A stretch of 64,000 nt of DNA from Luteibacter sp. Sphag1AF (GTDB lineage: Bacteria; Pseudomonadota; Gammaproteobacteria; Xanthomonadales; Rhodanobacteraceae). Both the position numbers and the translations under genes were made by a program. Shown piece by piece: positions 3,181 to 23,052 of this stretch; the stretch's first letter is position 1; each line of letters begins with the position of its first letter. The notes beneath the pieces are model-generated. The model searched no databases. It was not told where the DNA came from and was given only the letters and a program-made list of their open reading frames with translations. Where the stretch lies: the NCBI RefSeq assembly GCF_014192715.1, contig NZ_JACHYH010000004.1, positions 1 through 64,000 on the forward strand, read 5' to 3'.

Positions 3181-4422
3181 TTACGCGACTTTCGATTCGC
3201 GCATGAATTCGGCCAGTGTCGCGGCCAAACGCGACAGACCTTCCGCCAACTCTTCATCCGTGATGGTCAGGGGCGGCACAAAACGCAGCACATCCGGACC
3301 CGCCTGCAGCACCAGCAAGCCGTGCGCCGCTGCGATATCCAGAATCTCGCCCGCGCGGCCCTTGTAGGCCGTATCGAGCACCGCGCCGATCATCAGGCCA
3401 CGGCCGCGCACTTCGGCAAACAGATGATGTTCGGCGTTGAGCTTAGCCAGACCCGCACGCATGTCATTGGCCTGGCGCTCCACGTTCAACAGCACTTCGG
3501 GCGATGCCAGCTTGCGCAATGCCACGCGTGCCACCGCCGCTGCCATGGGATTGCCGCCAAATGTGGTGCCGTGCGCACCGAACTGCATCACTTCAGACAC
3601 CTTCGGCCCCACCAGCATCGCGCCGATGGGGAATCCACCACCGAGTGCCTTGGCCAGCGTGACGATATCGGGCGTGACGCCGTCATGGGTGTGCGCGAAC
3701 AGCGTGCCGGTGCGGCCCATGCCGCACTGAATTTCGTCCAGCACCATCAGCGCGTCATGCTGCGTGCACAGCTCCCGGACCTTCGTGAGGAAGCCCGGCG
3801 CGGCAGGCATGACACCACCCTCGCCCTGCACCGGCTCCAGCATCACGGCGGCCACATCACCGTGTGCGAACGCCGCCTCCAGCGCTTCCACGTCGTTGAA
3901 CGCCACGTAGCGGAATCCGCCGGGAAGCGGCTCGTAACCTTCCTGGTATTTCGGTTGTGCGGTAGCCGTCACCGCCGCGAGCGTGCGGCCGTGGAAGGAA
4001 CCGTGGAACGTCACGATCACACGCTTGTCCGCCGCGCGACCTTCAGAGGCCGCCCATTTGCGCACGAGCTTGATGGCGGCCTCGTTGGCTTCCGTGCCCG
4101 AATTGCAGAGGAACACGCGCGATGCGAACGGCGCCGCCTCGACGATTTCTTCCGCCAGCCGCAGCGGCGGCTCGGAATAAAACACATTGCTCGCGTGCCA
4201 CAGCTTGTGCGCCTGATCGACCAGCGCGTTCACCAGATCCGGGTCCTGATGTCCCAACGCGTTCACCGCGATGCCAGCGCCCAGATCAATGTAGTCGCGT
4301 CCCTCGGTATCCCAGACTCGTGCGCCTTTACCGTGGTCAAGCACCACGTCGCGGGGACGATAGACGGACAGCCAGTAACGCTTGCCGAGCCCGAGGAGGT
4401 CGGTGGCTTGGGGATGAGACAT
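3181..4422 (-). CDS. argD: Acetylornithine/succinyldiaminopimelate aminotransferase family
   Basis: 413 residues, class-III PLP aminotransferase. Motifs in order: DLGAGIAVNALGH, the PLP phosphate loop CNSGTEANEAAIKLVRK, FHGSFHGRT, VMLEPVQGEGG, LMVLDEIQCGMGRTG and the Schiff-base lysine in TLAKALGGGFPIGA. This is the ArgD/AstC pattern; the main role is expected in arginine biosynthesis, but a succinylornithine (AstC) or lysine-pathway role cannot be excluded. ATG at 4422 has GGGAG close upstream; the open frame extends to 4653 but that part is not protein-like. No other arginine genes are nearby. Confidence 0.9.
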   Translation of the reverse strand: MSHPQATDLLGLGKRYWLSVYRPRDVVLDHGKGARVWDTEGRDYIDLGAGIAVNALGHQDPDLVNALVDQAHKLWHASNVFYSEPPLRLAEEIVEAAPFASRVFLCNSGTEANEAAIKLVRKWAASEGRAADKRVIVTFHGSFHGRTLAAVTATAQPKYQEGYEPLPGGFRYVAFNDVEALEAAFAHGDVAAVMLEPVQGEGGVMPAAPGFLTKVRELCTQHDALMVLDEIQCGMGRTGTLFAHTHDGVTPDIVTLAKALGGGFPIGAMLVGPKVSEVMQFGAHGTTFGGNPMAAAVARVALRKLASPEVLLNVERQANDMRAGLAKLNAEHHLFAEVRGRGLMIGAVLDTAYKGRAGEILDIAAAHGLLVLQAGPDVLRFVPPLTITDEELAEGLSRLAATLAEFMRESKVA

Positions 4423-4597: not shown

Positions 4598-4621
4598 CGC
4601 GGTGTACGTGTAAACCGGGCG

Positions 4622-4698
4622 CTGTAACAGGATTGCGACAGGCGAGAAATCACGTTTCAGCGGGAAATTGCGGGATTTCGTGGCATCGGGTGTAACAG
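4622..4698. promoter_or_regulatory. Two TGTAACAG sites upstream of the sigma-54 promoter
   Basis: CTGTAACAG at 4622-4630 is a perfect inverted repeat around a central A, and GTGTAACAG at 4690-4698 is a near copy. They sit about 145 and 75 bases before the sigma-54 promoter at 4774, the distance range at which enhancer-binding proteins dock. Assignment as upstream activator sites is inference. Confidence 0.35.
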
Positions 4699-4773
4699 GG
4701 GCGCGGACGGGCGGCCTACGCCAAACGGTCTATGCCGTCGCGCACTCTCTTCGTTTTCAATCACTTACCTTTG

Positions 4774-4789
4774 TGGCACGACGATTGCT
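4774..4789 (+). promoter_or_regulatory. Sigma-54 (RpoN) promoter, perfect -24/-12 match
   Basis: TGGCACGACGATTGCT matches the sigma-54 consensus TGGCACG-N4-TTGCW at every defined base, with the correct GG-to-GC spacing. It points rightward into a gene-free stretch that ends in an intrinsic terminator. The adjacent gene at 4935-6272 encodes a sigma-54 activator. Predicted transcription start is about 4800. Confidence 0.85.
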
Positions 4790-4799
4790 CTCTGTTTCG

Positions 4800-4918
4800 G
4801 CAGGTCCGCTTGGGTCCCACCCACCTGACGGCACCTGTGTTCGCCTTCCCGACGACCCTGCCAAGCCGGGCGGGCGGATGGAGGCTCCCGTCCCCGAAAG
4901 GGGCCGGGAGTTTCCTTT
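4800..4918 (+). ncRNA. Candidate sigma-54-dependent small RNA, about 119 nt
   Basis: The segment from the predicted sigma-54 start to an intrinsic terminator is about 119 bases and holds no credible ORF or ribosome-binding site. It is C-rich in its 5' half (CCCACCCACC near 4815-4826), the type of single-stranded tract that can pair with G-rich ribosome-binding sites. The transcript ends 17 bases before the stop codon of the convergent sigma-54 activator gene. The arrangement recalls Vibrio Qrr RNAs beside luxO, but I cannot match this sequence to a named RNA family. Confidence 0.65.
4885..4918 (+). terminator. Intrinsic terminator of the candidate small RNA
   Basis: CTCCCG (4885-4890) pairs with CGGGAG (4905-4910) and CCCC with GGGG across a GAAA tetraloop, with one internal mismatch; TTTCCTTT follows. 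The T-rich tail is only on the plus-strand side, so it serves the rightward transcript and not the leftward activator gene. Confidence 0.8.
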
Positions 4919-4934
4919 GATTCGTCCGACCGGC

Positions 4935-6272
4935 TCAGCGAAGCTGATCCAGTGCGAGCTGGTGTTTCTTGCACAACCGATACACCGTGACCCGCGAGAC
5001 GCGCAGGCGCCTGGCGCACTCGCTCACGTTGAACGCGCTGGCTCGCAGGCAATCCATGATGGCCTCGCGTTCGGCGGAAATGCGCGCGCTTCCCAGGCTG
5101 TCGTTGATGCCGTTGCGTTGATCACCCGTCAATTCCAGATCTTCCGGCGTAATAAGCGCATCGTCCGCGACCACGGCCGCGCGCTGCACGCGGTTCATCA
5201 GCTCGCGCACGTTGCCCGGCCAGGAAAACGTATTCATGGCGCGTCGGGCGCTGGTGCTGAAGGCACGCGCCCGTGTGCCATAGCTCTCGCGGAAGGTTTC
5301 CAGGAACTGCTGCGCCAGCAGTTCGATATCCCCATCGCGTTCGCGCAACGGCGGCATGCGCAGGCGCAGCACATTCAGGCGGTAAAAAAGATCTTCGCGA
5401 AAACGCCCTTGTGCCACGGCCTTTTCCAGATCCACGTGAGTGGCAGCCAGAACGCGCACATCCACATGCAGCGACTGACAGCTGCCAATACGTTCCAGCG
5501 TTCCCTCCTGCAGAAAGCGCAGAAGGTTGGTTTGTGCGTCCAGCGGCAAATCGCCAATTTCATCGAGAAATACGGTGCCGCCGTCGGCAGATTCAAAATG
5601 GCCGATGCGCCGTGACGTTGCACCTGTGAACGAACCACGCTCGTGTCCGAACAGTTCGGACTGCACCAGATTGGCAGGCAAAGCACCGCAATTGATGGCT
5701 GCAAAGGGCTTGTCCCGTCGACGGGAAAGACGATGAAGCGCACGCGCGGCCATCTCTTTGCCCGTACCGGTCTCGCCGGTAATCAGCAGCGGCAGTTCCA
5801 CGGGCGCGAACTTGTGGATATTGCGCGACAGCGCCTGGATGGCCGGACTACTCCCCGTCATCACCGCCAGCCGCTCGTCGTCAGGCAGCGTGGGAGCCCC
5901 TGCCAGACCAATGGCCCGCGCCAATGCCTGATGAAGTGCGGCCATGCCTGCCGCGCCCACGATGATTTCTGCGGCTTCGGCCAACCTTCCGGCGACCAGC
6001 GGATCCTGCCGGCCGCGCGTACCCACCATCGCGATCCACGGCAGCGGCGTGGCCGCCAGTATCTGATCCAGCGAGGTCAATGCGTCGATGGCATGAGTGC
6101 GCAGATCGACCAGCGCCAGTACGGCATCGGACCAACCTTGAGTTTCACCGCTATCACGTCCCGGATCGGCAACCAGCGTTCGCCAGCCAGCCCGTATCAA
6201 GCCGAAATGCTCTTCCGCGGACGGCCTGCCAATCCAGACGACGCAACGCCCCGATACTGAGTGGTGCGACAT
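4935..6272 (-). CDS. Sigma-54 enhancer-binding regulator, VpsR/FleQ-like
   Basis: 445 residues. Residues 1 to about 130 look like a degenerate receiver ([10 protein letters not shown] where the phospho-acceptor strand would be, no clear acidic pocket or conserved lysine). An AAA+ domain follows with Walker A GETGTGKE, the sigma-54 contact loop GSFTGA, Walker [11 protein letters not shown] and WPGNVREL. The last 40 residues form a Fis-type HTH ([18 protein letters not shown]). ATG at 6272 has GAGGAG upstream; the longer frame to 6431 is not protein-like. In VpsR- and FleQ-type relatives such domains respond to c-di-GMP. Its most obvious target is the sigma-54 promoter at 4774 (inference). Confidence 0.88.
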
Positions 6273-20976: not shown

Positions 20977-23010
<2,034 letters not shown>

Positions 23011-23052
23011 TTGCCGGCTATTCAAGCACGAAGCGGGACGTGGCGCGAGCGA

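Follow-up and report, generated by a model that had tools for sequence, protein, structure and literature searches.

Gene structure of the locus

The window, i.e., the whole 64-kb stretch of DNA analyzed here, carries a sigma-54-type box, a stretch of about 119 nt with no credible ORF and a terminator hairpin between argD and the convergent gene of a sigma-54 activator, and these elements stand in register at 4774-4918 (Table 1). A preliminary description made from the nucleotide sequence had already named a perfect RpoN promoter, a gene-free transcript and a terminator at this place, as well as a sigma-54 activator as the convergent neighbor; promoter sequence, gene-free stretch, terminator and activator gene were all seen again, the activator being recognized by its AAA+ and Fis-type HTH domains.

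Table 1. Features of the locus and their positions in the window.
Feature	Position	Strand	Remarks
argD	3181-4422	-	Syntenic neighbor; context
Distal enhancer half-sites TGTAAAC (4609), TGTAACA (4623) and TGT-N12-ACA (4623-4640)	4609-4640		About 150 bp upstream of the box
Proximal enhancer half-site TGTAACA	4691-4697		83 bp upstream of the box
Sigma-54 (-24/-12) promoter TGGCACGACGATTGCT	4774-4789	+	Full match to TGGCACGNNNNTTGCW
Putative sRNA, about 119 nt	4800-4918	+	Predicted start about 11-12 nt past the GC of the box; end at the T-rich tail
Conserved core hairpin	4840-4878	+	Structure counts over 17 loci
Conserved loop ACGACCCTGCCAAGC	4852-4866	+	99% pairwise identity in the genus; pairing tests
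Proposed seed CCTGCCA within the conserved loop	4857-4863	+	
Terminator hairpin and T-rich tail	4883-4918	+	G+C-rich hairpin, tail TTTCCTTT, ends at 4918
BrfA-like sigma-54 activator, 445 aa	4935-6272	-	AAA+, Fis-type HTH; synteny with Fap operons

The perfect sigma-54 pattern was found five times in the 4.18-Mb genome and the reversed pattern once; a second site was detected on neither strand of the window, even with a slightly relaxed pattern. Another perfect box of this genome lies near position 226573 of G000:C1 (L001), where the downstream product resembles the flagellar protein FlgB by eye. The predicted fold of the RNA (4801-4921) has a free energy of -65 kcal/mol (z = -3.7), and none of 200 shuffled sequences was equally stable. 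The hairpin ending at 4918 was absent from the list returned by a consensus terminator scan of the window. Rfam yielded nothing at 4774-4918 at its own thresholds and two weak, chance-level matches (E-values of 0.47 and 1.3) at relaxed ones, in agreement with the former statement that no named RNA family matches. The only Rfam match listed in the window is a TPP riboswitch (RF00059, 64.7 bits) on the minus strand at 22926-23015.

A hidden small protein within the RNA was rejected, as only short TTG or GTG frames without a clear ribosome site are present. A mechanical ORF list contains a 315-codon TTG frame (4668-5615, plus strand), which crosses the RNA, overlaps the activator gene in antisense and was taken for a chance frame. 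Nor does the element, as it stands in the window, belong to the 3′UTR-derived sRNAs, because there is no gene between box and hairpin; by its position, the homologous element between fapC and fapD of relatives does fit that class. Judged by its sequence, the reading as a sigma-54-type sRNA gene holds, the RNA being predicted to be non-coding, with an intrinsic terminator and a -24/-12 box directly upstream. Transcription of the RNA and its dependence on RpoN and on the activator are predicted.

Conservation within the genus

Using BLASTN and a covariance model (R1), the RNA was found in 22 of the 23 available genomes of the genus to which the window belongs. BLASTN recovered it in 17 genus genomes, including that of the window, among 197 genomes of the family; an 18th match in another genus (L023) lies inside apparent coding DNA and was dismissed as a chance match. 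R1, built from the 17 cores, detected the RNA in 20 of the 21 genus genomes of the order sample and, in addition, in G477 and G478. All 22 genus loci with the RNA have a sigma-54 box at the same place. Retention of promoter plus terminator in relatives had been put forward beforehand as a test, and the co-recurrence of box, hairpin and terminator in 22 of the 23 genomes lifts the observation beyond chance.

Pairwise identities within the genus, calculated from 17 of 19 loci (L041 and L043 were left out), amount to 87% for the box, 80% for the core hairpin, 81% for the terminator, 74% for the coding end of the activator gene and 39% for the post-terminator region. The lowest conservation within the RNA is seen in the spacer between box and core (45%, compared with 99% for the hairpin loop), which speaks against the C-rich 5′ half being the pairing region, as had been supposed. 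In genus g13, the element is 95% identical as compared with 86% for the activator coding end.

The exception is G133, in which the whole block is gone, including the activator gene (no activator match). In this genome, an SDR gene, which in the window lies beyond the activator, precedes argD at a distance of less than 200 nt, and the gap between argD and the SDR gene contains neither a box nor a TGTWACA motif. Several draft contigs, among them that of the window at its start, break about 5 kb off the locus on the argD side; these coordinates suggest a long repeat at the breaks.

Probable origin from a fap operon

In many relatives, argD and the activator gene are separated by 5.5-6 kb, an interval occupied by a six-gene Fap amyloid operon (fap1) with one sigma-54 box. 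Its genes encode, in this order, a secreted protein, two repeat proteins, FapD (a C39 peptidase), a FapE-like protein and FapF, and the FapF of one relative matches the solved FapF structure 5o65 at 5.9e-82. A hairpin-terminator element homologous to that of the window lies between fapC and fapD in full operons. In this fapC-fapD element, 93.4% of the cells are paired and 58 cells carry double changes, compared with a mean of 19 in shuffles, indicating compensating changes. Alignment A3 comprises 36 of 59 rows, several of the 59 being chance matches in coding DNA and others near-copies. Other relatives have lost the genes of the operon and kept box and element, some of them together with broken remnants of fapA, fapC, fapD or the end of fapF.

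The activator was detected at E ≤ 1e-95 in 127 of 398 genomes of the order, 20 of which belong to the window's genus; 87 of the other 107 loci were taken. The resulting 107 loci were classified by regular expressions and tblastn into 55 RNA-only, 37 full, 7 with neither box nor element and 8 "other", the last being dropped before tree construction. The RNA-only class includes the 20 genus loci, the loci with broken fap genes (L123, L138, L142 and L146) and one locus with a small ORF (L148). Hence, 55 of the 62 classified loci without a full operon keep box and hairpin-terminator, 20 of them in the window's genus. At the remaining seven, the activator is kept and box and element are both absent, so some lineages can do without the RNA. 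On the activator tree, a quick LG+G4 reconstruction with several long-branch warnings, the split between full and lost operons needs 12 changes, of which at least 6 are forced by well-supported branches. All seven rows of the outgroup, which come from the other family sampled in the order, have the full operon.

A covariance model of the element trained without the window's genus (R2) gave 71 matches in 69 of the 398 genomes, and 68 of the 71 are no more than 6 kb away from the activator, including 8 sRNA loci of the genus. R2 thereby recovers 8 of the 21 genus genomes and misses 13. Outside the genus, 19 of 50 rows of R1 fall at a fap/activator locus; this comparison covers 50 of 52 rows, as two opposite-strand rows of the same places in G016 were left out.

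Broken fap pieces at several loci, together with the loss of box and element at seven, are also what a decaying relic would leave behind, i.e., the functionless promoter and terminator of a dead operon. Against it stand flanks of 34-54% identity next to an element of 95% and a loop of 99%, as well as retention in 22 of 23 genus genomes, and we regard this explanation as very improbable. From the comparison of loci, the sRNA gene looks like the survivor of a deleted biofilm-amyloid operon, a descent which the preliminary description did not contain.

Three further motifs were observed. In the order's other family (L171-L177, L180, L184), the gap between fapC and fapD has a different recurrent motif, AACAAxCCCGGxCATCCGCCAATGxCCGGG, before the terminator, and R2 weakly matches some of these loci. 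At the g13 loci L104-L118 and L121, the gap between terminator and activator contains a long inverted repeat of the type GTGAGCGGCGGGTGCTTGC...GCGAGCATCCGCCGCTCAC, and the same loci share a conserved 5′ RNA part with CCAGCTGCGA...TCGCAGCTGG.

Activator and enhancer

In Pseudomonas fluorescens PF07, brfA is reported as the convergent gene after fapA-F, encoding an RpoN-dependent regulator that transcription of fap requires, and a -24/-12 element is described upstream of the mapped start of fapA (passages in PMC9207406); BrfA of P. fluorescens is also reported as a c-di-GMP sensor (passage in PMC13101488). The activator of the window shares the position of BrfA-type regulators, being the convergent neighbor of fapA-F or, here, of its remains. 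We found the same activator/fap neighborhood at named loci in other Pseudomonas as well as in Shewanella, Burkholderiales and Stenotrophomonas. By comparison, activator and putative sRNA gene belong to one unit. At L148 (genus g11), the activator is without its N-terminal domain (match from residue 125, frame of 343 aa), and the small ORF between box and hairpin at this locus is the only such case.

The motif TGTWACA occurs in the 64-kb window only at 4623 and 4691, 151 and 83 bp upstream of the box, and upstream of homologous boxes it is enriched approximately 29- to 130-fold over dinucleotide shuffles. The spaced form TGT-N12-ACA was found upstream of 23 of 28 full operons (those of the 37 loci with a box found near fapA) and 28 of 35 other RNA-only loci, mostly near -165 in both, and in all 21 regions long enough to inspect upstream of a second Fap operon, fap2, described below. 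Unlike the fap2 promoters, the sRNA promoters of the genus mostly have TGT-N1-ACA and TGT-N11-ACA, with TGT-N12-ACA in 2 of 22. From these motifs we infer that 4609-4640 is the activator site.

A second Fap operon with a leader complementary to the loop

The genome of the window contains a second, diverged Fap operon at about 91.2-95.5 kb of G000:C3 (L195), encoding a glycine-rich first product, a C39 peptidase and a FapF-like porin; this FapF is 29% identical to the fap1-type query. A FapF related to that of fap2 is present in 80 of 197 family genomes, and fap2 itself in 22 of 23 genus genomes, the sole absentee again being G133. The operon has its own sigma-54-type box, mostly AGGCACGC-N3-TTGCT, with AGGC and GGGC variants besides TGGC. 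Among the family genomes that occur in both samples, fap2 was found in 50 of 52 RNA-only genomes, in all 6 that lack box and element alike, in 9 of 21 whose fap1 operon is full and in none of the 20 activator-less genomes among those listed, all counts being uncorrected for phylogeny.

The fap2 leaders of the genus contain GGCAGG (22 of 22) and TTGGCAGG (19 of 22), which are complementary to the sRNA loop. In 21 of 22 genomes, the genome's own loop pairs better with its own leader than with mononucleotide-shuffled leaders (p ≤ 0.05), and against 230 other leaders the own leader ranks within the best 5% in all 22. Among 95 leaders of the window and L195, one pairs as well as the fap2 leader, in a pool which may include the fap2 leader itself. 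G472 provides a single case of matched changes (loop CCCCUGCC, leader GGCAGGGG). When longer leaders were used in three genomes, one result was not significant (34 of 300 shuffles). Over stretches of 91 nt, the loop is predicted to pair at -18.9 kcal/mol with the fap2 leader; the 5′ ends of the activator gene (-16.8 kcal/mol) and argD (-10.6 kcal/mol) pair more weakly and were rejected as partners. With the longer fap2 leader, the value is -21.3 kcal/mol. The exact 11-mer CTTGGCAGGGT is rare in nine genus genomes, with 1-5 places each, mostly the sRNA's own complement, in a search stricter than the seed.

In other genera, CAGGGGG, which is complementary to the terminator loop CCCCUG of the element, is found near the first ATG in 20 of 20 fap2 leaders, 5 of which were located by the CAGGGGG search itself after the promoter regular expression had missed them. 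CCCCUG is invariant in the 39 element genomes with fap2 and equally in the 12 without it; consequently, termination or another target explains part of its conservation. CCUGU in the other loop is more common with fap2 (28 of 39) than without it (4 of 12; p = 0.037, uncorrected for phylogeny).

An invariant terminator position and loop in all 12 genomes lacking fap2, and a transcript aimed at the 3′ end of the activator gene, fit a role confined to cis, in which the hairpin-terminator just stops sigma-54 transcription and the RNA, having no trans target, is a by-product; the element would be a fapC/fapD attenuator in fap operons and, in the window, a shield for the convergent activator gene. 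We consider this role rather unlikely, as a by-product does not need promoter and enhancer to be kept through repeated operon loss, and a 99% identical loop matching a conserved leader site is left unexplained. Since fap1 genomes that lack fap2 have the element and its loop, a conserved sRNA of fap origin might also bind a protein or have its main target elsewhere, such as fapA leaders or other G-rich leaders. The leader complementarity and the co-occurrence with fap2 argue against this reading, which appears distinctly unlikely to us.

The fap2 leader site itself is predicted to be mostly paired (25% unpaired on average), in several genomes with coding sequence; conservation of the site might instead stem from this folding. 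The idea that pairing opens up the ribosome site of fap2 is unsupported, as in the predicted folds release of the leader site alters neither the ribosome site nor the AUG. Ribosome-binding sites had been proposed as general targets, but the pairing site with the best support lies upstream, in the leader of a single operon, and this link to fap2 is likewise a new point. Taken as a whole, the complementarity suggests that the sRNA probably regulates fap2 via loop-leader pairing; pairing in the cell, its sign and its mechanism are inferences.

A model for the sRNA gene

Conservation, synteny, origin, the shared half-site, complementarity and co-occurrence all emerge from genome comparison. On this basis, we hold it to be fairly probable that the window contains a stand-alone sigma-54-dependent sRNA gene, derived from a fap operon, under the adjacent BrfA-like activator and with a loop that pairs with the fap2 leader. 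The ancestral state would have been an RpoN-driven fapA-F amyloid operon in the interval between argD and the activator gene, of which the protein genes were deleted and enhancer, promoter and the intercistronic fapC-fapD hairpin-terminator retained. With promoter and hairpin-terminator kept and the fap genes deleted, the promoter would now make an RNA of about 119 nt. The adjacent activator would control the sRNA promoter, and the conserved hairpin loop would pair with the 5′ leader of fap2. As fap2 has a sigma-54-type promoter with a related enhancer motif, one activator would make both an amyloid mRNA and its pairing RNA. Our committed guess for the sign is that fap2 translation or mRNA stability would be damped (incoherent feed-forward).

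Extended to the whole family, the amyloid operon would embed a fapC-fapD RNA controlling a second operon in trans, with repeated erosion to enhancer, promoter and RNA because the RNA's duty outlasts the proteins. If true, this would be a reproducible route from an mRNA to a free-standing sRNA gene; we see the case for and against this extension as evenly balanced.

The locus is likely a new sRNA gene of the sigma-54 type and unusual in its origin, namely an orphaned RNA of an amyloid operon with a second amyloid operon as its partner. In the literature searched, which left most subscription papers outside, no prior description of a fap-derived sRNA locus was found. The origin of new sRNA genes is an open question, and here intact, decaying, RNA-only and RNA-less loci are all preserved in living relatives. 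Added to these are the repeated losses on one tree, a candidate target and, in G133, a natural co-loss.

Comparison with known systems

The Qrr sRNAs of Vibrio have a sigma-54 promoter, an RNA of about 100 nt and the sigma-54 activator gene luxO next door. The likeness to qrr1/luxO drawn in the preliminary description stands for the layout and fails for sequence and family: the element has no Qrr match in Rfam, and the activator reaches 258 bits compared with a LuxO cut-off of 800, so membership in the Qrr family was rejected. The activator is instead of the BrfA/Fap type, and the likely target is a Fap leader. In Xanthomonas, the C-rich loops of sX13 are said to pair with G-rich leader motifs; sX13 is not known to be linked to fap, and it was compared with the RNA of the window through Rfam scans.

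NrsZ (passage in PMC9731577) and GlmY (passage in PMC3162934) are reported as sigma-54-dependent sRNAs near or under sigma-54 activators; they lie at other loci, and the window has no Rfam sequence match to those of these families present in that database. At the PF07 locus, a sigma-54 fap promoter and a convergent enhancer-binding protein gene after the operon are described as in the relatives studied here, whereas the window has no fap genes between promoter and activator and, by prediction, an RNA instead; the PF07 passages in PMC9207406 and PMC13101488 describe no RNA at the fap locus. GlnZ, as presented in passages of PMC9731577, derives from the glnA 3′UTR and is cut from a living mRNA. 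Like the RNA of the window, it ends where a sigma-54-promoted mRNA terminates, and it combines a conserved seed with a divergent rest. In the window, by contrast, locus and activator are others, the coding genes have been lost, and the RNA alone would be made from the promoter.
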